Shown piece after piece: positions 2,098 through 48,168 of a stretch of DNA of 64,000 bases; within the stretch, counting starts at the first letter, position 1; every line of letters starts with the position of its first letter. Source of the DNA: Rhizoclosmatium globosum (Eukaryota > Chytridiomycota > Chytridiomycetes > Chytridiales > Chytriomycetaceae); the NCBI GenBank assembly GCA_002104985.1, contig MCGO01000030.1, positions 248,001 through 312,000 on the forward strand. The letters are read 5' to 3'. The notes beneath the pieces were generated by a model. That model searched no databases and was not told the DNA's origin. It was given only the letters and a program-made list of their open reading frames with translations. A program made the position numbers and the translations under genes.

Positions 2098-5000
2098 TCA
2101 ATGTCGCTGCACATAATTGAACGGGATCCACCCATCCCGTCCATCCACCAAGTTCCTGGCATGCCACCAATCCTCGTTTTCAAAATCCCCATTCCTTCCA
2201 CTGACAGAATCAATCCAAAGGACATCACCCGCTTGCAAGTCAAGTTCATCCTCCACCTCCGCCGTAAACGCATACAATGAAACAACTTCGAATCCGTCAA
2301 CAGTACTTTGCATCAGCGATGAAGTACGTCGACCAATGCTTGATGTCACCACATCATCATCAGTTCTTCCTGACCTCACAGATTCGGCACGAACACTTCC
2401 AGCGCCACCACCGCCGCCACGATGAGACAAATTCCGATTCGATACTGACTTTCCGAACGCGAATCGCCCGCGTTCGTCAGTGTTGTCAATGAATTCATCG
2501 TTGCGCCATACATTTTCCCTCCAGTTCTCGAGCAACTAAAACAACCAACCAATGTCAGAAACCCAAAATCCAAGGTAATTTTAAAAATAACTTACCCCAA
2601 TTTCGTATACACGTCGAGCAACATCCGGATCCGCAGCTGAAGCCGTCTTGAATTCTTCAACAACTCCAGGACCTCCATGCCCTCTTCCCCCAACACTGAA
2701 ATTACCTTCAAAGCTATTCACAACAACCCTCATCTCTCCCAAAACAGCTTCATGTACCCGCCGTTGTACGGCAACAAAGGCGCCTACGACTTTGTCCATA
2801 TACGTCGAAACCAGTTGACTCAGTTTTGGGAGTTCGAGAATAAGTTGGGCGTTAATGGAAACGTATGCTTGACTGCTTTCGTCCAGCGCTTTGTCAACAG
2901 GTTCTCCCTTTGCGTGCATTCGTTTTGCTCGATCGTGGTCCAGAAGTTTCATGTCGCGTTTCTTGATGAGAAGGAGGGGCCCTTTCAGCAGAGAGAGGAG
3001 CGAGTTGATTGCCGGTACTATATTTTGTTTCACTTCTGCTTCCTGTTGTACGTATTATTAAATTATCAGAATTGTTTTGTGGGCCCTTACAGCTTCTTTC
3101 CAGGGTTCATATCCACGTTTGGCGCATATCCGTCGGTACTCAGCAACTGTGATACCATGCCCATTCAATGAAGACGATGACGAAGTCCGTGATCCGTAGT
3201 CATTTGTTTTCCGTTTGAGCGATCCCCACGCAGACAAAGATCGTCCTCCAATGCCTGAAAGCATCCCCGAACTTCCACTGTTTGCTTGAAGAAGCTGAGT
3301 GTTTCCCAGCAGATACACGTCTTCTAATGTTGCTGAAAGGGTATCTTGCGCTTCCAGCGTGTCTTTGACAGTTTTCAGCCATTGATTCAAGTCTCGCGAG
3401 AACGTCATTATTTTGGTGTGCTGGAGCATGAATTTATCGTGAATTTCGGCGTATGTGTCGTCGCGAGTTCCGTCTACAACTTTCGTAACGTGTTTCAGCT
3501 GGGGTATACGTGAGTATATGCCTAGAGACAGTCAATGAAAGAAATGCCGCACCTCCTCAATTCCACGAGCAAATTTCTTGCTGATTCCATGCATCACATT
3601 GATTCCGCCCTTTCCTTCAACATATTTCTCAACTGTATCTTTTCTCTTCTTGACGTCATTAATCTCTTCACTAATTCGTGCCATTTCTGTTGCAGCCATC
3701 TTCAAGCGCTCATGATCCGGATGATATTCATTTGTTTCTTTGAGTAACGACGCTAACAGCAGAGGATACTTGAGTACGCGTTGAACAGGTTTGATAATGA
3801 GTGATGAGAGGTCCCATGCGTTTGTGCGTCCTGCCAGTTGAGATTGGCATTCTTTGAAGAAAGACTGTACAACTTCGGATGCATGCGGTGAAGTATAGTC
3901 AAAGAGACGTGTCATTTGAGTTTCATTATTTTTGCAGTATTGTGAATACGTCTCTTCGATGGCTGGAGCCTGGTACTCTTTGTCAGTACATTATTGATTC
4001 CAATGTCTGACTTGTGCTCATGCTTCTTTCTTGATGTTCGCTGCGCTCACACTTTTGCGCCACATGAGCCGATTCAGGAAAAACTGTTCGCTTCTCTCAC
4101 TATTTTTTCTGCTCGCTACGCTCGCACTTTGATGTTCGTTTTTTTTCTGTTCACTTACGCTCACTCCTTCTTTGTTCGCTATCGCTCACGCTTCATTTTT
4201 GATGTTCGCTACGCTCACTATTTTTTCCTGTTCGCTGACGCTCATACTTTAATTTCCGCTGGGCGCTCACTCTGGGGACACATAATACAAACGCACCATA
4301 TCCAAAAAGGCCTCAGAAACACGATCCTCATTGACTTTCTCCGTCAGAACATCGAGAAAAGAAGACGACAAAGAAATCAAGTCATCGACATTCCCAAAGA
4401 GCAATTTAATTTCAGAGGTAGAAAAGATTGCACGGTTGGTAGCAGGCAGGATATAAACATCTCTAAGGACATTCAAGTCATTCAAGAAGGAGCGTTCAGT
4501 TTCGACCAGTTCTTGTAGAATGCGGTCTCTTTTCGGGATGGAAGCAGAGAAGGAGGAGGAAGAAGATTCGTCGTCCAAGAGTGGAGCACCAAGGGAATGA
4601 GATGGGCGAATGAGAGGAGAATCCGGGGGAGAAGTAGTATGCGATGGACCCGGTTGGACGCCCGCACGGACCGAACCAGAGCGACGTGGCTGCGGCCTCA
4701 GTCGGGCCTGCGGAACGGGCGAGGGCGGGGCCACAGCAACCGATGGATCGAAGGATAGGGACGCGGCCGAGTTTACAGTGTGTTGCGAGTCGAGCGAGGC
4801 CTTTCGTCTGAGCTCTATGTTCTGAGTGTGCGTGTGAGAGTGAGACTGAGTTGGTCGGGGAGGCAGAGGATCCCCGTTCGACTGATTCGACTGATTCAAC
4901 TGATTTGATTGAAATGTTGACGGTGTTGCCGGGCGAGCGAGTTGTCTCCTCGAAGGCGGCGGTGGTGGCGGCGGTGCTGGTTTCCTCGACGGCGACACGG

Positions 5001-5663: not shown

Positions 5664-8600
5664 TTATGAACGTTTCTCCAATGCTACAGCACCAACTTTC
5701 ATCAACATCCTTTCCCTTTCTTGAGCTAACTCTGCAATACGAGCCTTGATATCGCTAAATTCATTTATCACAGTATGAAAGTCTTGATACGTGAGGCGAT
5801 ACAACACACTGGGCATTTTCGCTTGTACCGTTGCAGTTCGCAACACTTTGTTGATGAGCGCAACTTCTCCAAAGTACGCTCCATCATAGAGTGACTTGTA
5901 CACTTCTCCTCCAATCACAATATCAAGCTTTCCACTCAGGATAAAAAACATATCGGCTCCACTGTCACCTTCTTTCGTGACACAATCACCCGCAATATAG
6001 TATCGTATATGTAAAAACGATGCGATTCTTGCATAGAATATTTCATCGCGTCCATCGCCTGCTGACCGCCGCAAGAAAGGTACTTTGGTTATCAAATCAA
6101 ATGTGTTGTGCAAAGCAATCTCGGTCCGCAACGCTTCGTTCATATCCCCCAACAGCGTGTCTTCTTCAAAGTATTTTCCACGATACTTGGTTTCGTAGTA
6201 ACTGATCAATTTGTCTTTGGTTTCGTTGTTTAACTGCCTCCATGTTATATAATCTTTCAATTCTTCCATTTTCTGATTGTAAAGTCGTCCTGAGTTATCT
6301 ACGGATATCGCAGCACTTGAGATATATCCGACAAGGACAGCGTAGACTCCAGCTCCGACGAAAATAAATAAAATAGCAAAAAATTGTTCCATCTTAGTTT
6401 GTGGCCTGTGGATATTTAATAAAACCAACACAGTGCCCAAAAGAAGGAAAGAGAAGCTCACTTGTATGACATTGGAAACAGATTCCCAACCGCCAACACG
6501 AAACACCACAAATAACTATCCCAAACCGTCTCAGTCTGCGTCTGCACCCAATACTGACTCCATCCAAGAAATCCATTCATCTGACCCGCATAGAAAATCG
6601 CACATGCGTTGTAATGGAGAAACACTATAATTCCGATTCCGATTGGCAAGATTTTAGCCGACGCGACTCCAATCCGTTCCTCCACGAACAGTTTCACACG
6701 TGTAAAGATTGCACACCGGGTTGTGATTTGGCCGAGCCGGAGAATTCTTACAAGACGGAGGAGACGTAGCCACGACGTGTCTTGGCCCAAGATGGCACAA
6801 AATGGGATCTAAGAAATTGTAAAAAAAAAAAAAGCCATCATGCAAGGAGGAGGGGAAAGAACTTACAATTGAGACAAGGTCGAGGAGTAGGTACGAAGTG
6901 AGCCACTCCCGTATCCAAGCTTTGAGAAACGGTCGCAATGATTCGTATTCTCGGATGCTGTAGATTGTTGTCTTTCCGATATGAGAATTTGGCGTTGATA
7001 GTTGAACAAGCGAGTCCAGACAAAACACGACAGTGATGCTATGAAAGCACATTAATTTCAAATAAAAGTTGAATATGTATAACATACATGATACTAAAGT
7101 ACTTTCCATAAAAATCTGGCAACACGCTATTAAACCCAATAACAAACGGAACTTCTGCTAAACATGTTACGTACACAATTACCATAAAAAAATCAACGTA
7201 AGTTATCAAAATCGACTTGGGATGCAACCCATTTGTTCGGAACGAGATTCCATCGAAATCAGAGCTATCAAACTGATCCAACGTAATTCTTCTCCCTTTG
7301 CTATCATACGCCGGAATCAAGCAAGAATACGAAAAAATATCGTAAATCAACCCGGAAAGCGTTGTTTTAGGCAAGGCATCAGGTTCATTTCCCGAATTAA
7401 TTGAAAACGTCATTGTACTTGCAACGGGAGGTGCTCGATGCACCGATGATTGATTCGTGACGTTAGCATATTTGATTGAACTAGGCAACAGCTTTGTCCT
7501 CTCCAGAGTCGCGTAAGGACTTGCAACATCAGTGACTCTTGAAATAACTGACTCTCGTGGGGATGTGGGACCAAGCGGCTTCTGGTCATATGAACCTCTC
7601 CGTGATGCTACAGCTTTCTTCTGGGAATGTTCGTCTGTAGGACCGGCGGCCTTCATGGCTTGTACTTCATGAATGAAATCTTGCATTTCTTGAGAGTTGA
7701 AGGATCCAACTGACGCGTTTGCGTCGAGTGATGAAACTGATGACAGTTGGATCTTGGATTCTGGAGGATGTGAATTGTGCGGGAGAGTAGTGTTGGGCTG
7801 GGATATTACTTCTGTGACTGAAATACGGGGCGCCATAGAAACTGCGTCAATTAGCTCATCTTGCGGGAATATGTTCACTCCAGTCCCTCCATGGTTCACC
7901 AGAGTCCCATAGTTGTTCAATGTCCCTCTTCTATCAAGAGAAGCAACTCCTCCGGTTCCATCCGATTGCAAGCTGTGACTCTGCTGAAGACTATTCATTG
8001 TATTCAAGTCCTGTGTTTTGATTTTGTTCACGGCTCGATTCAATGAAGATGACTGAGTCGAATCTTTCTTGTTTAAGCCACTGGTATTACTTGCTTGTAA
8101 AAGTGCTTGACTTCGCAACGAATCAATGCGTTCACTTGACGGACTCAAAATTCCCGAATCGATCGTCTTCAAATCCACAGGACCCATATGTTTACGTACC
8201 AGTAAAGGCGATTTCGCACGTCGTTCAACTTGGGAGGATGCAATAGATGTGGAAGATCCTTGTTTCTTTTGTCGAAACGCTGCAAACTCGGGAATATGCG
8301 TTCCTGAACCTCCGGTTGCAGACCTTTTCGTGATTGATAACGAGCTGATATTAGCAGAGGTACTAGTTTTTACTTTAAATAATGGCGGTGGGGCAGAGTT
8401 GTTGACTTCTGTTGGAGCAGCGAAATCTGCAATATCCCACCTAAGCCCAAAGTCCAAGTGATTTGATTTTAGGGACGTGCTGGAGATTTGTACAGGTCGT
8501 GGAATGACATGAAGTTCTGTATTATGGTTTAAAGGGCGTTGTCGTGCAGAAGTAGATGAAGGGAAAACTTGATGAAGAAGAATAATCAGCTTATCAGCTT

Positions 8601-8673
8601 TGGTATTGACTTCGGACTTAAGCTCTAATATACTTTGGAGTAGGGCAGAGTGAACTGCGGTGTTGTCTATCAT
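5664..8673 (-). CDS. Cyclic-nucleotide-gated / HCN-like cation channel, copy 1
   Basis: Exons 8673-7088, 7038-6867, 6808-6462 and 6405-5664. The first ~400 residues are a Ser/Thr-rich cytoplasmic region. Six TM segments follow, including an S4 with Arg every third residue (LRLLRLVRILRLGQ) and a pore then S6 (LWCFVLAVGNLFPM, FAILFIFVGAGVYAVLVGY). A C-linker and a cyclic-nucleotide-binding domain close the protein; the phosphate cassette is YFGEVALINKVLRTATVQA with the expected Glu and Arg. The layout matches HCN/CNG/EAG channels. The filter position reads VGNLF where K+ channels have GYG, so ion selectivity is unclear. The start at 8673 (MIDNT) is chosen because it aligns with the start of the neighbouring paralogue; an ATG at 8703 is upstream. 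Confidence 0.9.
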
Positions 8674-8873
8674 TGATGTTTTCAGGCGACGATAATGGTT
8701 CAACCTGTAAATCTTTCCTCACAGCACGTCAGCACGGAAAAGCAATAAAAACCGGCACTAACAGGCTACTTATTATTAAATGTTGAAATGTTAATTCAAA
8801 CGGATAATTGTCGCTTTCCATGTTTAAGGTTGTCTTATAAAACATTTGCCAAGAATCATTATAATATTGATGT

Positions 8874-11859
8874 TTATTTCAAGTTTGATTCATGTATGAG
8901 GGTTCCTGACCGTTTCTCTGTGGCCATAGCAGCTACTTGCATCAATATTCTTTCTCTTTCCTGCGACAAATCCATAACACGAGCCTTGATATCACTAAAC
9001 TCATTAATAACAGCATGAAAGTCTTGATAAGTGAGTCGATACAAAACGCTGGGCATTTTAGCTTGTACCGTTGCAGTTCGCAGCACTTTGTTGATGAGTG
9101 CAACTTCCCCGAAGTACGCTCCATCGTATAGTGACCTATATACTTCTCCTCCAATGACAATATCAAGTTTTCCACTGAGGATAAAAAACATATCGGCTCC
9201 ACTGTCACCTTCCTTTGTGACACAATCACCCGCAATATAATATCGAATGTGCAAGCACGATGCGATTCGAGCGTAAAATATTTCGTCGCGCCCGTCGCCC
9301 ACTGTTCGCCGTAAGAAAGGAACTTTTTTAATCAAGTCGACTGTGTTATGCAGAGCAATCTCAGTTCGCAATGCTTCGTTCATATCTCCCAGCAGAGTAT
9401 CTTCTTCAAAGTACTTTCCACGATATTTGGTTTCATAGTAACTGATCAGCTTATCTTTGGTTTCGTTGCTTAGCTGTCTCCATGTAATATATTCTTTCAA
9501 TTCTTCCATTTTCTGATTGTAGAGTCGACCTGAGTTATCCACAGAAATCGCTGCACTGGAGATGTATCCGACAAGAACAGCGTAGACTCCAGCTCCAACG
9601 AAAATGAATAATATAGCAAAAAGCTGCTCCATCTTTGTTTGTGGCCTTTAATACAATGCGTCAGCCCATTTTCTCCGTTATGCGTATAAACGGAACTCAC
9701 TTGTATGACATTGGGAACAAATTTCCAACAGCTAATAAGAAGCACCAAAGATAGCTGTCCCAAACAGTCACACTTTGCGTTTGTCCCCAAAACTGGCTCC
9801 ACCCAAGAAAGCCATGTAGCTGACCCGCATAGAAAATTGCGCACGCGTTATAATGCAAAAATACAATAATCCCGATTCCAATGGGAAGAATTTTAGCGCT
9901 CACGACTCCAATCCTTTCTTCCACATATAGTTTAACTCGCGTAAAGATGGCACAGCGGGCCATGATTTGACCAAGTCGAAGGATTCTCAGCAAGCGAAGT
10001 AACCTCAACCAGACTATATCAGAGCCTACTATGGTACTGAATGGAATCTATGAAAGATAGAGTTTAAAGATTTAAGTTCAAAGAACATGCATCGAAGTTA
10101 CAATGGAAACTAGATCGATGAAGAGGTAAGACCAGAGCCATTCGCGAATCCAAAGGGCAAGAAAAGGCCTTAACGATTCGTACTCTCGGATGCTGTAGAT
10201 TGTCGTTTTTCCAATTTGCGAATTAGGTGTCGATATTGCAACGAGTGATTCAATAGAAAACACGATAGTAATACTACGCAATAAACTTTTAATACAAAAT
10301 AGAAATACCCTGATACTTACATTACGCTGAAGTACTCTCCATAAGAATCCGGTAGCACACTATTAAACCCAATAATGAATGGAACTTCCGCCAAACAAAT
10401 GATGTTGGCAAGCACTGTTATTACGTCGAAATAAGTAATAACTATCGACTTTGGATGCAATCCGTTCCTCAGGAACGATATTTCGTTGAAATCAGAAGCA
10501 TCAAATTGGTCCCAAGTGATTCGTTTCCCTTTACTATCATACGCTGGAATCAAACAATAATACGAGAAATAGTCAAAGAACCATTCTAAAAACGTCGTTG
10601 GTGGTGAAACTTCCAGTATATTTTCCGAATTTACTGTAGGTGCAGTTGCGCTCGCCACAGTTGGAAGTCGACGGAGATGCTGACGCCTTGTGACTTCTGT
10701 TTTCTTAATTGTGTTCGACCGAAGTTTTGATCTTTCTAAAGTTCCATGGGGACTAGCAACATCAGTCACATTTGACGCGTCAGATTCTCGTCGAGACGTG
10801 GAATCAAGTTGCGTCTTGTCAAAGTCGTCATTTGGTGGTACGCCAACTGTCCGTGCATGAATTTCTTGGATGAAATCTCGCATATCCTGAGACTGGAATG
10901 AATCAGTGGATGCATTTGCTTCAAGCGATGTTGTTGAACTCAATTCGATCCTTGTGTCTGCTGGAGTTAAATTTGATGGTCCGCTTTTTGGAAGCACTTC
11001 AGTGACAGACGCTCGCCGTGCATGAAGATCTTGAGGGTCTGAAATTGTCTGGTTTTTCGGAAATACATTTCCCTCCTCATGATTCACCAGGGTTTCGAAG
11101 TTTTTCATTGTTCCCTTTCTATCGAGTGAAAAAGAACCCCTTTTTGCTGGTAAGTCGTGGTTTCGTTTAAGACTGCCAGAGTGAATGGCTTCAATTGTCT
11201 TTGTCGCTCGACCCAATGACGCAGGCCGCGCTGCATCTTGCTGACTCACATTTAAACCTCCTGTGCTATTTGGTTGCAACAGAGGTCGAATTTGAGACGT
11301 GTCCATTCGTTCAGGGATAGGAGGAACAAATGTTGAGTCGATGGTGGTCGCATCTGCAGTCTGACGTCGCCGTTGAAATGGAGACTTAGCGCGTCTTGTA
11401 ACTTGCGGAGATGGGGACGAAATATTGACATAAGACCCCTGCTTTTTTGTTGAAACGCAAGAAAATCAGGAATCTGAGCTTCGGGAGTTCCAGCACTGCG
11501 TCTTCTCGACATTGATAACGTGCTTATGTTTGCAGATTTGCCTGCTTTTACGTTGAAGAGAGGTTGAGGGACAGAGTTGTTTACTTCTGCTGGAGTAGTG
11601 TAATCTTCAACGTCCCACCTGAGACCAAACTCCAAATGAATCGATTTCATGGAAGGATTTGACATTTTATCGGAAAGCTGGAGGAGGCGATGGTAAGTAC
11701 TTTGATGACAAGGTCCTGTCTTACGGGATGAGGATTTGAGGACGGACTAACAGATTGCTGCAGAAGAGCAATAAGCTTATCAGCTTTGCTGTTCATCTCG
11801 GACTTGAGCTCCACTATGCTCCGGAGAAGGACAGTGTGAAGGTTGAGATTGTCGGTCAT
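8874..11859 (-). CDS. Cyclic-nucleotide-gated / HCN-like cation channel, copy 2
   Basis: Tandem paralogue of the preceding gene, same strand and same exon plan. It starts at 11859 (MTDNLNLHTVLLRS), with the S4 at about 10008-9960 (MRLLRLLRILRLGQ), pore LWCFLLAVGNLFPM and a CNBD ending at 8874. The region from pore to CNBD is nearly identical to copy 1, while the N-terminal Ser-rich region has diverged, indicating a fairly old duplication with the channel core conserved. The VGNLF filter is shared. Near 11443 the frame breaks in an A-run (about one base missing); the frame after it aligns with copy 1 (QGS, RRAKSP), so a sequencing deletion is more likely than a real lesion. Exon limits in the N-terminal part are approximate. 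Confidence 0.85.
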
Positions 11860-24049: not shown

Positions 24050-25255
24050 ATGCCGCCGAAGAAGCGCCCTCAACTAACGACTTCCCCTGGCACCACAACT
24101 GTCCTCGTCTTCAAAACCCTCGGCCTCGAACGCGATGACGAGGCCATGAAGCTCCTCCGCAAAGTCGCCACGCTCGTGCAACCACTCATGACCAAACGCA
24201 ACTGGGTCCTTCCGCTTCTCCGCGAATTCGCACCAGACCAAAAGAACCTTCTCGGCGTAAACATTAACCGCGGAAAAGAGATCCGCATCCGCCTGCGCTT
24301 TCCGGACTCGGTCGGCGCCTTCTTCGACGAGGCCTTTGTCCTCGGAACAATGCTCCACGAACTGACACACAACATCCGCGGCCCGCACGATAAAGAGTTT
24401 TACAGCATCTTGGATTTGCTGACTAAGGAGCATGAGGATAATGTGGCGAAGGGGTGGACGGGCGAGGCCTTTGATGGCGTTGGCATTCGACTTGGTCACG
24501 GTGTTTCGCACGACTTGGATCCGGCGAGAGCAAAGGAGGTTGCCCTCAAGGCGGCAGAACAGAGAGCGAAACTGAATCGGATAATGTTGCCGGCAGGTGG
24601 GAAGAAGTTGGGCAGTGGAAGCAACTCTGACCTGAAGATGCTTGAGAAGGTGCTTTCACCACGAGAGATGGCTGTCTTGGCCGCGGAACGACGAATGAAG
24701 GATAGGATATGGTGTGGGAGTTCTGAAGAGGCAGGTGATACTCATGCAAGGTCTGGAAGCATAGAGAGTACAAAAACAGGTTCAGCTTCCTCGTCGAAAC
24801 CAACACCACAAGTTTATTCGATAGATTCGGACGAAGATTTCGAGGAAGATGATGTGCAACTCACGAAAAAGAAACGTCCACGCAGTCCTTCTGTTGAATT
24901 CGTTTCCTCTTCCTCCAACCTCAATCTCAAACCAACAGCAACAATTAAATCTTCAAAGCATTCCGTTTCTTCAGCTTCATCCATACCCTCAAATTCCACA
25001 ACAACAATGTGGGAATGCATCTCATGTACTTGGCCACGAAATGACACTAAATCATTATCATGCGAAGCCTGCCTTTCTCCCAAACAAGTTCCTAATCAGT
25101 CCAGTCACAACGAAAAGAACTCTGATGCTAGGCCGATTTTATCAAGTGGTGTTTGGATTTGTGTCTCTTGTTCTCTTGTAAATGAACCAGCCTCAAAGAT
25201 ATGTGAAGTATGTGAGCGACCATCGCCGGAGTTTTTGAAAGAGTTAGAAGGATAA
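24050..25255 (+). CDS. WSS1: WLM-domain metalloprotease, WSS1-like DNA-protein crosslink protease
   Basis: Single exon of 401 residues starting at 24050. The N-terminal WLM domain (about residues 15-165) includes LLGVNINRGKEIRIRLR and the zinc-protease motif MLHELTHNIRGPHD (HExxH). The C terminus has two RanBP2-type zinc fingers, WECISCTWPRNDTKSLSCEAC and WICVSCSLVNEPASKICEVC. Between them and the protease is a Ser-rich acidic linker with a possible SUMO-interacting stretch (VYSIDSDEDFEEDD). Wss1 removes proteins covalently trapped on DNA in a SUMO/Cdc48-dependent way; it is commonly annotated with one RanBP2 finger less. The first 120 codons are C-rich and the rest G-rich on the sense strand. 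Confidence 0.85.
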   Translation: MPPKKRPQLTTSPGTTTVLVFKTLGLERDDEAMKLLRKVATLVQPLMTKRNWVLPLLREFAPDQKNLLGVNINRGKEIRIRLRFPDSVGAFFDEAFVLGTMLHELTHNIRGPHDKEFYSILDLLTKEHEDNVAKGWTGEAFDGVGIRLGHGVSHDLDPARAKEVALKAAEQRAKLNRIMLPAGGKKLGSGSNSDLKMLEKVLSPREMAVLAAERRMKDRIWCGSSEEAGDTHARSGSIESTKTGSASSSKPTPQVYSIDSDEDFEEDDVQLTKKKRPRSPSVEFVSSSSNLNLKPTATIKSSKHSVSSASSIPSNSTTTMWECISCTWPRNDTKSLSCEACLSPKQVPNQSSHNEKNSDARPILSSGVWICVSCSLVNEPASKICEVCERPSPEFLKELEG

Positions 25256-27002
25256 ATGTTTATTTATTCCATAAAGTGTGTGTGCATATGCTGAAGCTCG
25301 AAAGAACATCTAGTCCGACATCGACATCAATTTGTTCCAGCGGCAATGTGCGTCTTGAGGCGTCGCGAAGTCATGACCAAAAAAGAAAGTCAACAACCCA
25401 TGTGCATTGAAGGTGGTAAAACCCTACGGACCAGCCACAACCAGCCTGAGCCAGCCCGAAAAACCAGCCACAATTGAACAAACAAAAACACAAACCAGTT
25501 CTTAGATCAGCACCCACCAAACAACATCGAAAAATATGGAATCAAAGCCAAATCCAGAAGAAGAACGAATCCTCCTACCAACTCTCACTACCAACTACGG
25601 AACCTCTCCGCCAAATGTCAAAGAACCCTCAAAACAAACCTTCTATATTGAATCCTCCAAAGACTCCGAAGTCTCTGTTCCACTACCTCGAGTCCAATTC
25701 ATTCTAGCCATAGCTTCTCTATTCATTGCCATCTTCCTTGTCTCCCTTGACAACACAATTGTGTCAACAGCTTTGCGAGGGATGATTATGGATCTGGGGA
25801 AACAAGAACTGGCACCGTGGGTTGGCAGTGCATACATGGTAACTAGTGCCGGTTTCGCAACACTCTATGGACGTTTTGCAGGTAAGCTTAAGCGTTGTCC
25901 GCACTTGGATTGAGTGTTGACTAAACTTGCTTTCTCAACAAGATATATTTGGTCGAAAGTGGGTGTTTATGTTCGCGATGGCAATGTTTGAGATTGGGTC
26001 TTTGATTTGCGGAGTTGCTCAGACGATGGAGACTTTGATTGTGGGTCGTGCCATTGGTATGTGCCGTCTGCACTCAACGCCCCCAAAAAACTAATCAGAC
26101 CCTCTCAGCTGGAGTCGGAGGTGGAGGAATGAACGCGATGGTCTTAATTATGATTTCAGATATTGTTTCGATCAGAGACCGTGGGTAAGCAACCGCCGAT
26201 CTCTCTTTTGAATGAAAGTTGACAAATTCCTAGAAAATACCAAGGTCTTGTTGGAGCGGCAGTCGGTGTTGCGAGTATTTTGGGTCCCATTGTTGGTGGT
26301 GCCTTTTCTGATTCCTCTGTTTCTTGGCGATGGTTTGTGCCTGGGTGTATCTTTTTTGACGATGGTAACATGTTTTACCTAGGTGCTTCTACATCAATAT
26401 TCCCTTCGGAATGGTAGCTATGGGTGTGGTTTCATTACTCCGATTCCCTCCTTTCACTGGTAATATGGCGGAGAAGTTGAAGCGAATCGACTACTTTGGC
26501 GCCCTCACAATATTCCTTGCCATCCTCTGTCTCATTTGTCCACTTCAACTGGGAGGCTCTACGTGGGAATGGAACTCGGCACCAGTTCTTATCATGTTTC
26601 CTCTTTCCGCTGTTTTCTTTGCGATCTTTGTCTTTGTCGAGTTACGTATGGCGAAAGATCCAATTGTTCCAGCAGGAATGTTTGTCAATCAAAACGTTCC
26701 TACCTTATTGGCATATGCCATCAGCTTGGGAGCTATTTTCTTCAGCGCAATATACTTCATCTCGTGAGTCCTGGTTTAAAATCTCTTGCAAAGACTCTAA
26801 CTCAATTATTAGAATGTTCTTCCAAGTTGTATTCAACAATACAGCAACTCAAGCAGGAGTCTCAACCATACCGCTTGTCCTTGGAATGGTTGTGACAACG
26901 ATTGGATCTGGTATATTTGTCTCAAAGACTGAGAAATATGTGCCCTTGTTGTATGCCGGTCCAGTCTTTATGGTCATCGGAGCTACTTTGACAGCATTCC
27001 TC

Positions 27003-27007
27003 GATGG
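27003..27007. repeat. Target-site duplication GATGG, left copy
   Basis: GATGG directly precedes the left LTR. The second copy is 34007-34011, directly after the right LTR. Five bases is the usual duplication for Ty1/copia integrases. Confidence 0.93.
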
Positions 27008-27396
27008 TGTTGGTGTCTATGGGCTTACCATAGGTCCCATTCCTTGAGTGGATACAATGTCAATAAACTGATTACCTTGTGATGTATGTCAGCGGTAGCG
27101 AGACACGATTAAGCCAATTCGCCGAAAGCGGTTAGTGCGCGATCAGATGATTGATGCGTGACTTACGCTTTTGGAAGAACTGACGCTGGAGCTTGGGTGT
27201 TCGGCTTAACGCTCGTGTCTTGTCCAAGTCCGATTACGGCTTGGGTGTGCCGGTAGTTGTGTGTTCGGTCTTTGATGTTGACAAACCGGATCGGAGAATT
27301 TCGTGATTCCGACAATGTGAAACACATGTCGGTTTTCCTCTTTTCTTCCGAACGGACGAATTCTCGTGCAATTACACATCCCGGCAGCAGTTAACA
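27008..27396 (+). repeat. Left long terminal repeat, 389 bp
   Basis: Starts TGTTGGTGTC and ends CAGCAGTTAACA. It matches the right LTR at every position I compared. It should carry the element's promoter and polyadenylation signals; CAATAAAC at about 27050 is a candidate core. Confidence 0.95.
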
Positions 27397-27439
27397 CAAA
27401 AGCGTTCGTCTTAGCATCCTCATCACCGTCGTCCCAGAA

Positions 27440-29114
27440 ATGAACAACTTACAGAAAACTGAACGCAAAGCGGATACTGGTGTTAAACGTCCTCCTAAAG
27501 TGAGTGGCGAAGAACCCGCAACCGTAGGCGAACAGTTGGACAAGGTTGGAAAATTTCTGCGAGCTAGCGGCCTGGGATACAATTTAGACAATGACGTAGT
27601 GAAAACTCACCCGAGCCCTGTGACGGCAAAGAATCCGCATCCAAGACCTGTCTATCCTGCTGCTCCTGATTATACGAATATGGATGATGCTGCCAAGGCA
27701 GAAGCATTCACAAAGTATTCGACGGATCTAAATCAGTTTAGATTGGATTTGGAGGGTTATGATTTCTCCGAAAAGAGCATCTGCTACGAGTACGAAACCT
27801 ACTCCAAGGAGTTGGCTGAGTACAAAGAGTGGAGAGCCGAAGAAGACATAGCCCAAAGTGCCTTTGAGACTTTCATTCCTGAATCTAGATGGAATGAAAT
27901 CAAGGGTTCGGTTGAGTACAAAGAAAAGCCAAACTTATACACCGCTTTCCGTGTGGCCAGAAAACTGATGGCAAACTTGGAAGGAAGCGGTAAGTGACGT
28001 TGGTCTTTTCAAATCGGAATTCGAAACTAATGGTTCTTTATTCAAAGGACTACAGTTTCACCACTGGTTCGCTCGGGTTTTCAAAACAACGATAAGCCCA
28101 AAGGAGAGACACCAGACCAAAGCCTGGAGAAAGTTTGTAGGTGATTGGAGGAAGGTGATCCGAAACTGTTCCATCCTTGACTCGAGAGTCAAGAAAGGAC
28201 TCGGTGACGTTCCAGACGCAGACAAACTTGCATCCACTTTCATTGGAATCCTCGTCAAGGAGCTGTTACAGAGCCAAGCCTTGCTCTCCCTTCCTGACGG
28301 ATCGACTTCTTTTGGATTAAGGTGAAATTTAAACTCTAAAATTATGGTGTAGCGAGGCGTTCCACGCCTCACGGAACTATCTGTTTTGAAACGTTTCTAA
28401 ATCTGTTTAAATCAACATAGATTCGTTCCGATACGCCAGAAGATGGAATCAAACGACTTTGCCGCCAACTTTGGTACGTGTGACAGCTTGTTGGACGAAC
28501 TCCAAACCCTTTGTACCAACGAGGAACTGACAGCGGGTGCCCAACAATCCGAAATCACTTCGACAAGTGAAAAGGAAAGGAAGGAAACCGCTGCAGCTGC
28601 TCAGGCTGCAAAGAAACAAGCCCAACAGCAAGCCAAAGCTGACGCCAAAGCCAACCAAGACGCTACAGCAGCCGCGATGTCAGGGAACAAGAGAGGAAAT
28701 GGGGGAAACAATCCGAAAGCACCAAAGAAGGCCAAATTTGAGCCTTGCCAAGCTTGCGACGATGGTTCCACTCACGGATTCACAACCTGTCCAAAGTTGC
28801 TACAAAGTATGCAGACTGGTAACAAGAACGCTTTATTCGAGATCATGCAGAAGCGAATGGGAGTTTCCCAAGGCCAGTCCTCTCAAATGAACACTGGTGA
28901 TGCAACTGGAAAGGGTCTCGGAATTCATAAGAAGCAAGTAGCAAACGCTGCGAAGAACCTTGCCAATGTGAGTTTTGCTGTTTGAAAGTTTCGAAACTGA
29001 AACGCCTCCCTCCTTGAAACACAATCTAAACAGACCTTTGGGCAACCGCTCTTTGGTTCACCATTTAACTCTAGTTCCTCGACGACTCAACCGATATCTG
29101 AATGGATCAAATAG
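27440..29114 (+). CDS. gag: Copia gag protein (4 exons, 483 aa)
   Basis: Exons 27440-27989, 28048-28321, 28421-28967 and 29034-29114. Phases match at every junction (1, 2, 0), giving 483 residues. The N-terminal half is helical and charged, as in copia capsid proteins (FSEKSICYEYETYSKELAEY, then FHHWFARVFKTTISP and AWRKFVGDWRKVIRN). Near the C terminus a Gln/Lys/Ala-rich segment leads to a zinc-knuckle-like CQACDDGSTHGFTTC, which is CX2CX5HX4C rather than the usual CX2CX4HX4C. The last exon ends SEWIK and its stop codon overlaps the pol start by 13 nt. Start chosen as the first ATG after the LTR. Confidence 0.88.
27990..28047 (+). other. gag intron 1 (58 nt)
   Basis: Donor GTAAGT, branch-like ACTAAT, acceptor TTCAAAG. 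It falls after codon position 1. Reading through meets a stop three nucleotides after the donor (GGT AAG TGA). Confidence 0.9.
28322..28420 (+). other. gag intron 2 (99 nt)
   Basis: Donor GTGAAA preceded by AAG, branch-like TTCTAAAT, acceptor AACATAG. It falls after codon position 2. Reading through meets TGA at once. Confidence 0.85.
28968..29033 (+). other. gag intron 3 (66 nt)
   Basis: Donor GTGAGT, branch-like ATCTAAAC, acceptor AACAG, phase 0. Unspliced reading stops within six codons. Confidence 0.9.
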
Positions 29115-32100
29115 CGGGAATGAGTGAAGATGGTATTTGTGTTGCAAGAGGAATGAAAGTGGCAAAGAAAGGAGATAATAAAACGGGTGTGGTTGGGATG
29201 ATGGACTCGGGGGCAACAAACCTGATGACTGATTCGCTGGCGCGCTTTAATCGTGAAACTTTCGAATTTTTGGATAACGAATTTGTTTACCTTGGGGATG
29301 ATTCGCCTGTACCGATTAAAGGGAAAGGATGGATCACTCTCAATTTGGGTGGAGTAAAGAGGGAAGTCTCTGCGTTCTGGGTCCCAGCGCTTGCGGAAAC
29401 ACTGATTTCGATCAGCCAGCTTGTGAAGGGAACAGATGATTATGTCATTTTCGGCGATTCGGCAGTCTACTTGTACCTGAGAAAGACAGACCGTACGTTG
29501 AAGATTGGACGACGCATTGGAAACCTCTATTACTTGGACTTGATGGAAGGAACCCCTCCTGCAATCGCACCCAAGATTAAGGCAAACACATTGGGTACAA
29601 AAACATTCACTGGAAAATCGAAACACGTTCCGTACCTTACCTGGCACAATCGCTTGGGCCACGTTGGAATGGAGATGGTGAAAAGAACGTTGAAGATGGC
29701 TGGCATTTCGTACAACTTCAAGAACGACCCAACCGACTGCTTAGTGTGTCAATTGGTGAATTTCAGAAGGCGGAAGACAGGATCTGTAGGCTCAGTACCA
29801 ACCCGGCGTTTCCACACCATCTCGGAAGATTCGTTTCAGCTGAAAAGTCGAGGACGAAATGGAGAGACTAACTGTTCATTCATCTACGACAAATATACTC
29901 GAAAGGCCTGGTGTCTGTTCCTCAACGGGATGGATACGTTCAAATCAGCTTTCATTTCGTTTTGCAAAACCAAAGAAGTTGAATTGGAAGAGAAGTTGGT
30001 CGTGATTCAAGGAGATGGAGGCGAGCTCAAGTGCAAAGAGATTGAAGAATACTGTCGCACTCATGAGCCAAACCAGATCTCAATGAAATTGTCACCAGCC
30101 GATACACAGGCATTGAATGCTGCAGAGAGACCCCTTGGGATTTATCGCGAAAGAGCTCAATGCTTTCTCTCAGTAGCTGGACAGAAACAACTGTGGTTTC
30201 CATACGCGATGAGATATTCTTGTCTGATTGGAACCATGATACCTTTTGGAAACGATGGCAAATCTCCCCATGAACTGGAAACAGGCGAAAAACCGAAACC
30301 AGAATTGGTGAGAATCTTTGGTTGTCTTGTAGCCGTCTTTGTACGCAAGGAGAAACGTAGTAAGCGCTGCCAGCCAGGGCATAAGGCTGAGCCCGCGTTC
30401 TTCCTTGGGTGGATCGATCATAAAGCGCGAATCGCGTATGTCTATAAGTACCGCACTCGAAAAGTTCACAAGGAATTTCAAATCCGACTCTTGGAGTCAA
30501 TTCTGCCTGGTCAAACTCTGAAGCCTGCCTATTTGAACCCGTTCACAAACTTGAATTGGGAACCAGAAGAAAATGCGGAGGCATCAGAACCAATCGACGA
30601 CGATTCAGATGACGAGGATGGCGAAACCGTTCTTGCAGACGATGAGTTGATTGAAGATGACGGACAAATTGAATTTGAGGGTGAAGTCCTTGAGAAAGTG
30701 CCGGAACTGTTGGGTGAGTGGATGTCCCTTATCCAACAGCTGTTGATAACAGATTATGACTTACGACAACTGCAAATAGATGAGTCCGATGATGATGGTG
30801 ATGATCAACGGACTACACCTGTGACCAGTAAGACAGTTGATGGTGACTTGGAATCTGTCGATGATGGTAAGATCCGTAACAACGAATCAGCCCAATTACC
30901 ATCTGATCCAACCACTATATCAATACATAGATCCTGACTCCGATGCTGAGGAAGAAGAAACCCTCCTCGCAGCGGCGCCGTCAAACAAGAAAACGGGCTT
31001 AGATGGATCGCACTGGAAGGATGACAACTTAGCACCCACAAGTGATGGATATCGACTGCGGAAACGTACTCGAGCTGCGCTTGCGAAAGGGGAAGTCGTT
31101 GATTCGGACATACTGAAGTTGATCTATCACCGAGCCAACCTGGTAACTAATGTGACCAAAAACCGTGAAAAACTGGAAGCGATTGACGCTATTCTTGCAC
31201 TGAACTCCACTGTGGAGCAAGCAGAAGTAGGATCCCCTCTCGCTAATGGTAAATAACTTGAACTCAACGGATTTGAGTCCAACTAAACCCATAAATGTCC
31301 AGATCACCGTCAACGAGGGTTATTAGCGTTCGAAAACATAAGTACAGTCTCTGACTCAGAAGTTCAATCTCACCTAGACAAGAGGATGCTCGAGGTCGTT
31401 GGAGAAATTGAATCTGAAATTGATGAGTTCTATGCAATCAGTGACTTGATCGATTCCGTGAAGGGAGTGCGCCATCCTCATTTGGAGAAGAAGCGTGACA
31501 AAGCTCTGGAAAAGATTGACAAACTATTCGACGGGAAATTGAGCAAGTTGGAGGAAGATCGCGAACGAATTAACCGGGCGCGTCTCCCGCCTCTTCAGTT
31601 TGATTGGGACGAAGCTGCAGAGTCTGATATCCCAACTGAGGAGATCCATATCTCATCAGCCCCTCCAGTCCCGAAAAATGTTCGACAAGCTCTTGAAGGT
31701 CGATTCAGAAAGTATTTCCTACGTGCGATGCTCGTGGAGATAGAGTCAATCCGGAATAGAGGAGTGTATACAGTGGAACCCTTGCCGAAAGGGAGACGGG
31801 CCATTGCGTCTAAGTGGGTCTTCGATTACAAAATCAACCCGTATGGATTCATTGACCGTTTCAAAGCAAGACTGGTCGCTATGGGGAACTTTCAAGTACC
31901 TGAAGTTGATTTTAACTCTACACACTCACCTGTCGTGAAAGCCAAAGTGGTCCGTATCCTACTGGCCATGAGCGCTGCTTTTGGACTTACTGTTGAACAA
32001 CTTGACGTTAAGACTGCATTCCTGTACGGCACACTTTCTGAAACGAATTGGATGAAAATGCCCCAAGGATTCGAGGAATTCGCTCCCGATGGAACACCAC

Positions 32101-33362
32101 TGTACGCAAAACTGATCAAATCCCTGTACGGATTACATCAGGCTGGGCGTGAATGGTGGAAAGTACTCGACGCGTTCTTCATTGAACAAGGATTCACTCG
32201 AATGAAGTCTGACTCTTGCACCTACCTTAAAATCGATCCGGAAACACGAAAACTGATTCTTGTCGTGACGTACGTTGATGATATCCTCGTTGCATGCAGT
32301 GACAAGGAAGTCATAAAGAAAGTCAAAGACTCAATCCGTGCTCGTTTCGAAATTAAGGACTTAGGCGTTGCTCAATGGATTTTGAAGATTCAGGTTGAAC
32401 ATACGAAAGATGGGATCTGGATTGGACAACCAAACTACATTCGTTCTTTACTGGAAGAGCACAACGTGTGGGATATTCCTGAAGAGAAATGGAAGGAGAC
32501 TCCTATGGCGACAGATTGGAAACATGATCCGAACAGTCAACACCTCGGACCTGAAGAAACATCAGTGTACGTGGGACTTATCGCGAAATTGTTGTACTTG
32601 GCGATGCAAACTCGTTTAGACATTCTGTATTCCGTTAACACATTGGCTCAGTACCAGAAATCACCTCCGTGTATTCATGATATGAAAGCTGCGCTACGTG
32701 TTCTATTATATCTTCGAAAAACTCACGATCTTGGGTTATTCTTCCGAAAATCCGCGTCTCCTGAAATGATTGTATTCGACACTGCTGTGGAGGATCTTAA
32801 TCAAGAACGTCGGATGGTGTTACCTGAAGGAATGAGGGAAGTCGGATATACAGACGCTAGTTACGGTCAGGAAGACGATCGTAAATCTCGCAGTGGATAC
32901 ATCTTCATGTTGTTTGGTTGCCCGATTGTGTGGTTTTCCAAGAAACAAGCTACGACTGCCTTATCTTCGACCGAAGCTGAAATCGGTGCGTTGGTCGAAG
33001 GAATCAAGGAAACTATTTGGTTCAGAGGATTCTTGAGTGAATTAGGGTTCAAGGTTGATACACCTACCACTATGCACCAGGATAATCAATCAGTGATTGC
33101 GATTGCGGTTAATCCAATTCATCACGCTCGTATTAAGCACATGGAAATCAAGACTCATTTCATTCGTGAGAACATTGATAATGCAACCGTGAAGTTGTTG
33201 TGGTGCCCAACAGAGTTGATGTTAGCGGATATCTTGACAAAAGCTTTACCGAGTCCTCAACACCATTATCTTCTCGGTTTACTTGGTATGCGTAGTTTTG
33301 CGGCGGTGAGAGCGGGTGTAGCGGAGCCTTCGACTCTGTCTCAGTCGTTTAGGGCGCTTTAA
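29102..33362 (+). CDS. pol: Copia pol polyprotein (3 exons, 1380 aa)
   Basis: Exons 29102-30866, 30931-31248 and 31303-33362, in phase. Protease: MMDSGATNLM. GAG-pre-integrase zinc region: WHNRLGH followed by CLVC. Integrase catalytic residues: Asp in HTISEDSF, Asp in VIQGDGGELK, Glu in ALNAAERPLG. An acidic spacer with the two introns follows. Reverse transcriptase: RAIASKWVFDYKINPYG, EQLDVKTAFLYG and the active site VTYVDDILVA. RNase H: GYTDASYGQEDDRKSRSGY, LSSTEAEIGA, MHQDNQSV. All catalytic positions are present, so it looks competent. Pol begins in a different frame from gag, its ATG 13 nt before the end of the gag stop, so reinitiation or frameshifting is needed. Confidence 0.95.
30867..30930 (+). 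other. pol intron 1 (64 nt)
   Basis: Donor GTAAGA, acceptor TACATAG, phase 1, located in the acidic spacer between integrase and reverse transcriptase. Unspliced reading stops at 30937. Confidence 0.9.
31249..31302 (+). other. pol intron 2 (54 nt)
   Basis: Donor GTAAAT, branch-like AACTAAAC, acceptor TGTCCAG, phase 1. Although its length is a multiple of three, unspliced reading meets TAA immediately (GGT AAA TAA). Confidence 0.9.
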
Positions 33363-33617
33363 TGGTTTTATTTCTTTCTTCGTTATATACGTTGATTGAT
33401 TTATTTCTATTTAGTGTTCTTATCTAATAAATAGTTTTAAACCCTTAGTTGACATCGCAACAAATACAGTTGGGTTCAATTCCCTTGTCGCACGTCGCGA
33501 GTAGGTCGCCTGTATTTGGGGGTTTAATACGTAATATGAAAACATGATACTTGACTTACAAGGGGGTATAGTCAACTGGTAACATCACAATGCCAACAGT
33601 TTGTTGCCACAAGGGGG

Positions 33618-34006
33618 TGTTGGTGTCTATGGGCTTACCATAGGTCCCATTCCTTGAGTGGATACAATGTCAATAAACTGATTACCTTGTGATGTATGTC
33701 AGCGGTAGCGAGACACGATTAAGCCAATTCGCCGAAAGCGGTTAGTGCGCGATCAGATGATTGATGCGTGACTTACGCTTTTGGAAGAACTGACGCTGGA
33801 GCTTGGGTGTTCGGCTTAACGCTCGTGTCTTGTCCAAGTCCGATTACGGCTTGGGTGTGCCGGTAGTTGTGTGTTCGGTCTTTGATGTTGACAAACCGGA
33901 TCGGAGAATTTCGTGATTCCGACAATGTGAAACACATGTCGGTTTTCCTCTTTTCTTCCGAACGGACGAATTCTCGTGCAATTACACATCCCGGCAGCAG
34001 TTAACA
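33618..34006 (+). repeat. Right long terminal repeat, 389 bp
   Basis: Second LTR copy, preceded by the polypurine run AAGGGGG and followed by the GATGG duplication (34007-34011). The 255 bp between the pol stop and this LTR hold no gene. Confidence 0.95.
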
Positions 34007-34589
34007 GATGGCAACTCGTCAGTCGCTCAACGTATATTCTACTTGTTTTTCTTGGGTATGGGATGCGGTTTTGTATTCCAAACACGAGTGATGGCACTTC
34101 AGTCAAGCGTTCCCGCTCAATATATTGCAGTTGTCACTGCCTTGGCATCAACTTGTTTACTTCTCGGCGGGTGAGTGCTTTTAGTTGATTCTCTTTTAAT
34201 AAAACTAATGAAAACTATTCAGAGCAATCGGTATTGCGGTCACGGGAACGATTTTCAACAACTTGATTGCTTCCAAGACCCTCACCGCCGGAAAACTTCA
34301 GCTCACAGTGGGTATGATTCAAAAAGCTGGTTATAGCGCAGACACTTCTGAAGTAATGGGTCTGCTTGAGCTTATGAAGATTGCTGCCGAAAAATACCCC
34401 CAATATGCATCGACCATTGCAGATGCGAGGATAGAATTGGTCGTTGCATTTAATGATTCATTCAAGATTGCATACTTGAGTATGCTTGCATACCCAATCA
34501 TTTTACTTGTGTTGGCACTGTTTGTCAAACAAATCAATCCTTCCGGAAGCGACCGTTCTCATTCTGCCATGCCTTTATTAGTTGAATAA

Positions 34590-44345: not shown

Positions 44346-46237
44346 CTTCTCCTCGTCTGTCTCTTCTGTGTTTGCGTTCTTGCCGCGCTCGACAACCTCA
44401 TCGTTTCAACTGCCATTCGATCAATCGTCATCGATATTGGAAAGCAGGAACTGGCGCCATGGATTGGTACTGGCTGCGATCAACTTAACTTGTGTCTTAT
44501 TCATCTTCGATACCTAAGGTTCCGCATACATGATAACATCTGCTGGCTTGACTCCATTATATGGTCGCTTCGCAGGTTTGAGAGCACCCTTGACAGCACC
44601 CTGGTCTACGACAACCTCAACTCTAAATTATTACTCAATAGATATCTTTGGCCGAAAACCTATGCTTCTGTTTGCAATTGTGTTATTCGAGATTGGATCC
44701 TTGGTTTGCGCTGTGGCTCAATCAATGGAAACGTTGATCGTTGGTCGAGCAATTGGCAAGTTCCTTTTCAGGTGATCATGTTAACTGACGCTTTGCGCCA
44801 GCTGGTATCGGAGGCGGGGGCTTAGGTTCACTTGTCTTGATTATCATGAGTGAGATTGTGACGATACGCGAGCGAGCGTAAGTGTAAAAACGTGCACAGA
44901 AAGCAAATGACTAATAAATCCCAGAAAATACCAAGGCATGTTGGGTGCAGCTATCGGCCTTTCGAGTATAATGGGACCATTGGTTGGAGGATTATTGTGC
45001 GATAACGCAACGTGGAGATGGTTGGTGATTATTCGGGCAGAAATGAACTAAGCGTGTGTACAGGTGTTTTTGGATCAATATTCCATTCGGGGTCCTAGTC
45101 ATTGGCATACTTAGTATGGTTCGGTTTCCTGTTGTTTCAAGCGATAAGAGTTTGCTTGAGAGGCTCAGACAACTTGACTGGTTAGGAGTCATAACGCTCT
45201 TTCTGGCAATCATGTTTTTTGTCACACCACTTCAGCTCGGTGGGTCTCTATGGGAGTGGAATTCCGCGCCAGTTTTGACAATGCTTCCACTCTCTGTCGT
45301 TCTCATAGCCTTGTTTGTGTGGATCGAGAAGAGAGCAAGGAATCCTATCATTCCGTCATCTCTATTTGTACACTCTAATACTGCACTATTATTGGTGTAT
45401 TCTCTTGCTTTGGGCGCCATATTCTTCTCTGGCGCATATTACATCAGTCTTTTCTTCCAAATTGTCTTTGGCAAGTCGGCATCGGACGCTGGTGTTACTG
45501 CTCTACCTTTAAGTTTCGGAATGGTTTCCGCAACTGTCGGCTCCGGTATCGTCGTCTCGAAACGTGGAAGATACATCTCGCTCTTCTATGCGGGACCAGT
45601 TTTCATGATCATTGGTTGCGCTCTGACTTCATTCCTTGACGCAAATTCGCCTCTTATTCAACAGATTGGTGTTATGTTCATATTTGGCTTCGGTGGGGGC
45701 CTTGTCTATCAAACGCGAGTAGTTGCAATGCAACTCAGTGTAAAAACAGAATTAATTGCAGTGGCTACATCTGTATCTACAACCTGCTTTTTGCTGGGAG
45801 GAGCTGTCGGGATTTCAATTACGGGAACAATTATCAACAACCTCATCACCCAAATCACTGACACAATGGAGGACTTGCGTACTGTTATCCAAATTCTTGA
45901 TAAGTTTGGATTCCATGTTTCCACTCGAGAAGTTCTAGCAACGTTGGAATCTCTCGCTCGATTGGCTAAAAAGTATCCTCAATATCTCAGTATAGTTTCG
46001 AAATCAACTTCTGGCCTAATCCAAGCATTTAATGACGCATTTAAAGTCGCTTACCTTTCAATGATCACGTACGCTGTTTTGATGCTCGTTTTGGCATTTG
46101 GTATGAAGCACATTGCACCAACGAAAAAAGTAGATCCAGTTGTAGAGTAGAACCTCAAAATTTCGATTTTCTGACCTCATTAATAGACTAAATTGTAACT
46201 TGAAAACTTCAGATTTATTTTATTCATAATTTCACGC

Positions 46238-48168
46238 CTAATGAGCACCTGCTTCCACATCCTTTGGCATAGCCATCTGTTTCACAAACAAAGCAAAGAT
46301 AAGAATGAGGATTGGGTATGGAAGAAGTCCAAGATACGCGATCTTGAATGCTCCGTTGAATCCATCCTTTAATTCAGTTGTAGCGGCAGCAAGCGTCGCA
46401 TTGAACGCAGCAGCGGCCACAGTATCATTTCTTGGATAGAACTGAGCCGAAGCTTGCAACATTCCAAGGAGTGGCAAAACTTCGGAAGTTTGAGCTGGAA
46501 TTCCTTGGGCGACAAATCTGCTGACCCAGAACTGAAGCTCCTTAGCATCCGCGGTGTTGGACGTAACAATGTTGTTGAACAAAGTTCCAGTGATGGAAAT
46601 CCCAACGGCTGAGCCAAGAGTTTGGCAGGTTTGAGACACGGCTGTAGCGATTGCAATGAGTTCACGAGGAACAGAGGCTTGCAAGGCGATAACACGAATT
46701 TGCTAAAATGGTTTTGTTAGTAACAGATATGCAATATAAAATTTGAGTATTTACCATCATCGAACCAATTCCCAAACCGAAAATCAACAAAGAAAAAACT
46801 TGCTGTACCATAGAAGAATCACCATTGAGGAAAGAAATCGCGATAATTCCTCCAATGGCAACAATAGGCCCGATGAAGAGGAAATGACGGTACGTGCCGA
46901 ACTTGGAAACATAGATTCCAGATCCAATAGTCATCACAACAAGACCTGCAACAATTGGGATGATCTTAAGTCCAGCTGAGGTAGCAGTGGACCCAAAAAT
47001 AACTTGGAAGAACAAAGAGATATAGTAGATTCCTGGCACGAAGCTGGCTCCAAGGCAGAGTGCAATAACCAAAAGAGCCGGGACACTTGCATTAATAAAG
47101 ATAGACGCTGGGATAATTGGCTCCTTGGCAACCTTGAGCTCAATAAACGCCAACACAGCAAACAAGATGGCGGACAAGACGAACAAGACAATAGTTTGTG
47201 ACGCATTCCATTCCCAAAGAGATCCACCAAGTTGAAGAGGAGTCACGAGACAAAGAACAGCCGCGAAGAGAACCAAAGCTCCAAGGAAATCAACTCGAGA
47301 GATTTTATCCTTGAATGAGCCATCTTCAGGTGGAAAGTTGAGGTACATAATAACTGTGAACAAAGTGATGGCTCCCAAAGGCAAGTTGATGAAAAAGCAC
47401 CAGCGCCACAGGCCATTATCACTGAAAGCTCCTCCAACGAGCGGAGCAATCACAGAAGCAAGTCCGAAAACAGCACCAATCAGACCCTGGAACTTTCCTG
47501 TGAGACAACCATTAATTTTTGACTGGAGTAATTGCAAGCCTCAACTCACCTCTGTCACGGATAGAAACGATGTCTGAAATGATAATGAGGACACACGAAA
47601 AGATACCGCCTCCACCAACACCCGCAATGGCACGGCCGACGATCAAGAATTCCATACTAGTTGCAACACCGCAAAGAAGAGATCCAATCTCAAAGACCGT
47701 AATAGCAAAGACAAAAACCCATTTACGACCAAAAATATCGGCAAACTTCCCGTAAAGAGTTCCAAGAGGGGCGGCTGTCATGAGGTATGCAGAACCTGGA
47801 TGAAATGGAGAACCAAGTTAGATATTTTTCATTCACTTGAAAGCGCGGAACGTACCAATCCATGGAATGAGGTTCTGTTTTCCAAAATCAGTAACGATTG
47901 TCTTGAGGGCTGTCGCGACAATAGTTTGATCCAAGGCGGCCAACAGAATTGCTAAATCGAGATCGTGAATATAATAAAGAATACCGGAATGCTCATGCAT
48001 ACCAAGCAACAATCCAATATAAACCAGCACAAACTTGGCTTTTGTGAGTGGTACACGAATGTAATTCGTGCCATCTTCATCTTGCATAACTGCAGCCGTG
48101 CCTTCAGTGCGTTCAGAAAGTACTTCAAGCTGAACGTCAACCTTATTCGAGTTGGTGTTTGAAATCAT
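46238..48168 (-). CDS. MFS4: 14-TM drug:H+ antiporter-type transporter
   Basis: First of six minus-strand array members; its stop lies 88 bp from the MFS3 stop (convergent). Start taken at 48168 ([14 protein letters not shown]), which matches the length of paralogue N termini. TM1 carries [17 protein letters not shown] after removal of a 51-nt in-frame intron (47952-48002). Further landmarks are [81 protein letters not shown] and a final helix [12 protein letters not shown]. The frame is intact throughout. Likely an exporter of unknown substrate. Confidence 0.9.

Follow-up and report, generated by a model that had tools for sequence, protein, structure and literature searches.

How can a long terminal repeat (LTR) retrotransposon, whose RNA is copied back into DNA, hold spliceosomal introns? 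This question is raised by a 64,000-nucleotide stretch of the chytrid Rhizoclosmatium globosum (contig MCGO01000030.1, positions 248,001 to 312,000; hereafter the window), in which positions 27008-34006 are a full-length Ty1/copia element with five short gaps in gag and pol. Comparison with related elements makes it very probable that this is one of four recent copies, that the gag-pol gene of its lineage holds several real spliceosomal introns, and that unspliced RNA is replicated while spliced RNA is translated. The element is composed as follows, and its relatives are designated by L numbers.

27003..27007, no strand: left target site duplication GATGG (5 bp), identical to 34007-34011
27008..27396, + strand: 5' LTR of 389 bp, TGTTGG...TTAACA, identical to the 3' LTR
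27440..27989, + strand: gag exon 1, an open frame ending in phase 1
27990..28047, + strand: intron 1, 58 nt, phase 1; same codon and phase in L032 and L034; in 4/4 copies
28048..28321, + strand: gag exon 2, with a tblastn match to L032 and a weaker one to L034
28322..28420, + strand: intron 2, 99 nt, phase 2; the sole frame-restoring GT-AG pair; in 4/4 copies
28421..28967, + strand: gag exon 3, an open frame
28968..29033, + strand: intron 3, 66 nt, phase 0, near the gag-pol border; a phase-0 border intron also in L032; in 4/4 copies
29034..29114, + strand: gag exon 4, ending in TAG in the window copy (stop at 29112-29114)
29102..30866, + strand: pol exon A, protease-like and integrase part; Pol_BBD above cut-off, matched by the integrase parts of relatives
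30867..30930, + strand: intron 4, 64 nt, phase 1; phase-1 introns in the same linker of L032, L034 and L041; in 4/4 copies
30931..31248, + strand: pol exon B, a 318-nt linker with an acidic start, a symmetric phase 1-1 exon
31249..31302, + strand: intron 5, 54 nt, phase 1; corresponding phase-1 intron in L032; in 4/4 copies
31303..33362, + strand: pol exon C, reverse transcriptase (RT) and RNase H part, stop at 33360-33362; RVT_2 detected, RNase H assigned by position only
33609..33617, + strand: polypurine-like tract adjoining the 3' LTR, from sequence reading
33618..34006, + strand: 3' LTR of 389 bp, identical to the 5' LTR
34007..34011, no strand: right target site duplication GATGG (5 bp), identical to the left one

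A preliminary description, made from the window alone, had reported the five gaps, and their coordinates, lengths and phases are all confirmed: each runs GT...AG, they measure 58, 99, 66, 64 and 54 nt, they fall in phases 1, 2 and 0 in gag and 1 and 1 in pol, and every exon is open in its own frame. When all frame-restoring GT-AG pairs were scored at each gap, the called pair had the top score at introns 1, 2 and 3 (11, 1 and 4 candidates), but at introns 4 and 5 (30 and 8 candidates) it was level with pairs that end at a different acceptor. The GC content of the introns is 0.34-0.41, as compared with 0.46-0.49 in the flanks. The preliminary description also held that every unspliced gap contains an in-frame stop, which is true of four of the five, the stop lying 5 nt beyond the acceptor in the case of 30867-30930, and that most gaps have a CTAA-like branch site, for which we find a CTRA motif in all five and the strict form CTRAY only in introns 1 and 4. 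It was right in calling the two LTRs identical (over 389 bp) and the duplication perfect (GATGG on both sides). The copy is indeed recent, but it is not intact: at the gag-pol junction its length falls 10 nt short of that of each of the three siblings, so that gag runs into a stop at 29112-29114 and pol is in a different frame.

Such a frame break might suggest that the element is simply a degenerate copy, in which intron-like insertions or deletions have interrupted the frames, and one sibling, L029, does contain three 1-nt deletions. The sibling copies nevertheless tell otherwise. When the genome (56.9 Mb, 420 contigs) was searched with DNA of the gag part and of the linker part, either query gave four places, these counts being lower bounds, and all four copies keep the five introns with intact GT and AG ends. 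Gap-free siblings with continuous frames, which the preliminary description had named as the result that would overturn its reading, are thus replaced by the opposite. The four copies bear different 5-bp duplications (GATGG, ACGTG, CTTCC and GTACC), each with an identical LTR pair, and because four separate insertions all keep the introns, unspliced RNA was the template for them, as had been proposed. Among these four copies, no difference in intron presence was found; outside this family, a single intron is absent from 2 of the 13 copies found of the L041 family (see below). Gag exon 1 is 99% identical in the three siblings and 24% in the C4 family (that of L032), and two of the three siblings have gag in frame with pol at the junction. 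With intron-split codons and codons around the gag-pol overlap left out, comparison of the window copy with its siblings shows 24, 25 and 25 synonymous differences and, in every case, 5 nonsynonymous ones, giving a ratio of nonsynonymous to synonymous divergence (pN/pS) of 0.057-0.059. The introns differ at 6, 7 and 7 of 341 nt (0.018-0.021), close to the synonymous divergence (pS 0.0195-0.0203). Since pN/pS is ~0.06 in frames that connect only with the gaps set aside, and the gaps diverge at the synonymous rate of ~2%, the exons are selected as protein and the gaps are not.

Phase-consistent gaps also recur in distant relatives. Three more families, with one member of each read by eye and by script (L032, L034 and L041), are 34-42% identical in the integrase part, and each has five GT-AG introns that join open frames in consistent phase. 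Over the four families, all 20 listed introns are GT-AG, 46-99 nt long and phase-consistent, the exons between them hold one stop (in L034) besides the gag-pol frame break of the window, and a CTRA motif is present in 16. Intron 1 lies in the same glycine codon and in the same phase in the window (S-G-LQFHHW), L032 (G-G-HAFHNF) and L034 (S-G-LQFMNW), and about 2 nt off this position in L041 (G-MNFTTF). If we assume independent uniform gain over 1450 positions, the exact three-way coincidence arises in 2 of 200,000 simulations, and in 111 of 200,000 when insertion is restricted to one eighth of the sites. The window element and L032 both have a phase-0 intron close to the gag-pol border, and in all four families the linker that precedes RT contains phase-1 introns: ahead of its basic motif, located by eye, there is one in the window element and two each in L032, L034 and L041, and after it one each in the window element and L032. 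That gaps with consistent phases occur in other families, one of them at the same codon, adds to the persistence of the gaps in all four siblings and to the constraint on the exons. Degeneration of the window copy is therefore rejected as highly improbable, being strongly disfavoured by both sibling and family comparison.

The linker introns of the window element, L032, L034 and L041, all in phase 1, split G|A codons for Asp or Glu, a pattern reminiscent of the duplication or exchange of an acidic phase 1-1 exon.

Within the L041 family, one intron is present or absent. A 56-nt GT-AG intron interrupts the integrase region of L041 (positions 4752-4807), as well as those of L042 and L043, while L036 and L037 (~98.5% identical) are devoid of exactly these 56 nt, their junction matching the splice product exactly; the remaining four introns are all kept in L036. 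Among the 13 copies found, 11 have the intron and 2 do not. This is what a spliced intron predicts and, together with the phase-consistent introns of the three other families, it upholds the earlier interpretation of the gaps as spliceosomal introns. The 56-nt difference would reflect either a splicing event that reverse transcription carried into DNA or an intron gained recently. Loss by reverse transcription of partly spliced RNA would be expected of such an element, and L056 and L057, the most diverged copies of the family and decayed ones, carry the intron. At 26 diagnostic sites, L056 and L057 share 20 and 21 states with L041 and 3 and 2 with L036, 3 being missing in each, but the stem leading to these two has accumulated many stops and decay-like changes, and the residues of outgroups did not decide between gain and loss. 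A loss seems somewhat more likely than a gain. Separately, L056 and L057 share stops and many Arg to Cys/His and Asp to Asn changes, which look like cytosine deamination or a process like repeat-induced point mutation.

Gain could also be put forward for the introns in general, which would then be recent arrivals, by reverse splicing into element RNA followed by reverse transcription, and not old survivors. The 56-nt intron speaks for it, as neither the window, L032 and L034 families nor L036 and L037 have it, so that a single gain would explain it in the fewest steps. However, intron 1 is common to distant families, the 56-nt intron occurs as well in L056 and L057, the most diverged members of the L041 family, and its 44-nt core has no match elsewhere in the genome within 3 mismatches, hence no donor. 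Recent gain as a general explanation is accordingly unlikely.

In an RT tree of 54 rows, the four intron-bearing families and metagenome-type proteins form one clade of 26 rows (support 98/96), and the intronless family of L038, L039 and L048 joins just outside it at a weak fork (88/43). L039 and L040 each consist of a single 1958-residue frame from gag to RT and have no introns, whereas L038 and L048 have frame breaks; the former two are a control, as the same genome also carries an intronless relative. This family bears on the idea that introns hide the element from a HUSH-like surveillance that silences intronless cDNA, intronless daughters being made but dying out. We know of no such pathway in chytrids, and the intronless family (L038, L039, L040 and L048) persists in the same genome in several copies with nearly identical RT, which makes concealment quite improbable. 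It would fit with the two copies of the L041 family that lack an intron, one each, both of which carry stops or breaks, and with human cells, in which an inserted intron is reported to counteract HUSH repression even without splicing.

Among the best 120 of 5330 protein relatives listed, the closest is 62% identical and the top ones are for the most part unnamed records of metagenome type; the lineage therefore extends beyond this genome. One of them, P0002, seems to run in one frame from the linker into RT, and intron 5 may therefore be variable. Searches of viral contigs and genome contigs confirmed no DNA relative outside this genome. Within it, RVT_2 has 109 matches, and the stretches read among them cover the four intron-bearing families, one intronless family and three distant ones, with L033, L044 and L051 covered by tblastn and frame lists only. 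The distant families L049 and L050 have breaks between frames. A distant copia family (e.g. G000:C361:252498 and C377:479752) contains, in some copies, open frames of at least 2600 residues, unusually long for the copia superfamily.

How would such an element replicate? Full-length unspliced RNA would be packaged and reverse transcribed, and fully spliced RNA should be the message for Gag-Pol, because gag and pol connect only with the introns out. RNA keeping intron 3 would stop soon after gag and likely provide extra Gag, and an occasional partly spliced RNA, once copied, would leave an intron-loss scar. As introns should vanish at each copying round and yet persist, the element probably keeps spliced and unspliced RNA apart. 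This separation could rest on sorting in the nucleus, on timing, or on a packaging signal that is lost or hidden through splicing. The preliminary description went further in suggesting that the element may control its own splicing, or may depend on host factors to sort the two RNAs. In its strictest form, this would be an obligate division of labour, in which genomic RNA is translated only to a truncated Gag, only fully spliced RNA makes Gag-Pol, and sorting excludes spliced RNA from replication; we consider the case for and against this strict form to be evenly balanced. If it is true, the exclusion of spliced RNA is good enough for the introns to outlive the divergence of families, with rare leaks as single-intron losses.

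The border intron suggests another reason for keeping introns, namely that its regulated retention sets the Gag to Pol ratio in place of frameshifting: splicing would yield Gag-Pol, and retention a stop after Gag. Window intron 3, just before the gag-pol border, has an internal stop, as does the phase-0 border intron of L032, and L034 and L041 have late-gag introns with internal stops. By eye, the L032 border intron (3144-3221) has two possible acceptors 32 nt apart, that at 3189 leading to the pol frame and the AG at 3220-3221 to the gag frame and a stop. In favour of this idea, splicing determines the share of Gag in BARE and EVADE (PMC3735527, PMC8892269). But retention accounts for one intron per element, not for the two or three in the integrase-RT linker, and as the reason why the introns are kept it is a possible though rather doubtful explanation.

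Several points weigh against replication of unspliced RNA from a gene with real introns. The introns are predicted from DNA sequence, and four copies are not enough to conclude that the window family never loses an intron. The acceptors of introns 4 and 5 are likely but not unique, since their top scores are tied, and 4 of the 20 introns have no CTRA (intron 4 of L032; the integrase intron and introns i4 and i4b of L041). From one family to another, alignment of the linker that surrounds introns 4 and 5 is poor, so homology of the linker introns rests on order and phase. Intron 2 is found only in the window family among those read, and intron 1 of L032, being 48 nt long, a multiple of three and stop-free, could be translated. 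Besides the restriction of the 56-nt intron to one family, L036 and L037 show zero differences over 2244 sites compared, and are thus likely one insertion duplicated.

Retention of introns despite an RNA intermediate is known for Penelope-like elements, which have neither conventional LTRs with 5-bp duplications nor a DDE integrase. The window element shares with them the retained introns and differs in having conventional LTRs and integrase-associated domains. It is Ty1/copia by its TG...CA LTRs and 5-bp duplication, features of all four copies, and by its RVT_2 and integrase part upstream of RT; the gypsy-type order (RT before integrase) is not found, and the single gag-pol frame that is usual, not universal, in copia elements is broken by the five gaps. 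Within the copia superfamily, a single alternative intron is described in Drosophila copia, barley BARE1 and Arabidopsis EVADE, the unspliced RNA being the genome (PMC3735527, PMC8892269, PMC12786077). The likeness lies in the superfamily, the unspliced genomic RNA and the separation of RNA roles by splicing. In these three, however, the one intron is optional, its removal leaves Gag only and unspliced RNA codes for Gag-Pol, whereas the window element has several small introns, two of them in pol, whose removal opens the gag and pol frames. Intron-retaining EVADE RNA is mostly nuclear and spliced RNA is translated (PMC8892269), which makes EVADE a useful precedent for RNA sorting of this kind. 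The plant Ogre elements are likewise intron-bearing LTR elements with transcripts spliced between open frames (PMC3735527, PMC12786077), but they belong to the Ty3/gypsy superfamily, while the window element has an RVT_2 pol with the integrase part first and five introns.

Since the RNA of a retroelement is turned back into DNA, its introns would be expected to disappear, and a December 2025 review (PMC12786077) recounts that an artificial intron in the yeast Ty element TyH3 was lost on transposition, the classic proof of an RNA intermediate. There too the intron sat inside an LTR element, but it disappeared, while those of the window lineage are kept. The same review states that plant LTR elements are generally without introns, Ogre and EVADE being notable exceptions. 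In "LTR Retrotransposons in Fungi" (PMC3248453), the words intron and splic do not occur, and a search of open-access literature, mostly at the level of titles, found no LTR element described with several obligatory introns across gag and pol that are conserved between families. A multi-intron variant of the copia superfamily would thus be what is new, and the extension of the finding beyond the window to a copia lineage is supported by the sequences compared. A lineage with several obligatory introns would be a natural system for learning how genomic and messenger RNA are distinguished, copies with or without an intron recording which RNAs were reverse transcribed. Annotation pipelines may mistake intron-bearing elements for broken copies or host genes.

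Pfam analysis of the coding parts reports RVT_2 (PF07727) in pol exon C (E 4.1e-57, window 31764-32474) and, in pol exon A, Pol_BBD above its cut-off (35.9 bits versus 27), with gag_pre-integrs (27.5 bits versus 28.4) and SH3_retrovirus (26.6 bits versus 27) just below theirs. A zinc-knuckle-like CX2C...H...C stretch is seen by eye in gag exon 3. A 17-base pattern derived from the sequence that follows the 5' LTR, used as a primer-binding site check, matches the genome only in the four copies. The genome holds 20 whole or partial matches to the LTR, and the three solo LTRs of the window family that were checked (L045, L046 and L047) are all flanked by 5-bp repeats, a sign of LTR recombination.

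The element is inserted inside an MFS transporter gene (26411-27007 and 34007-34222), the peptides to its left (open frame 26496-27047) and right resembling, by eye, successive parts of the MFS protein at 45056-46150. The interrupted gene seems to contain a 52-nt intron (34171-34222, GTGAGT...ACTAAT...CAG), and the host thus appears to use the same splice signals as the element. Further MFS genes lie near it, at 45056 and 57736 (Pfam) and at 46662 and 50663 (by eye), in what looks like a local cluster. The neighbouring WLM protein (24050-25252) has its closest matches in Obelidium mucronatum (56% identity) and Chytriomyces species. Lastly, tandem similar open frames occupy 5664-11306 on the minus strand; that at 8874-9632 has a cyclic-nucleotide-binding domain (Pfam), and the others resemble it by eye.

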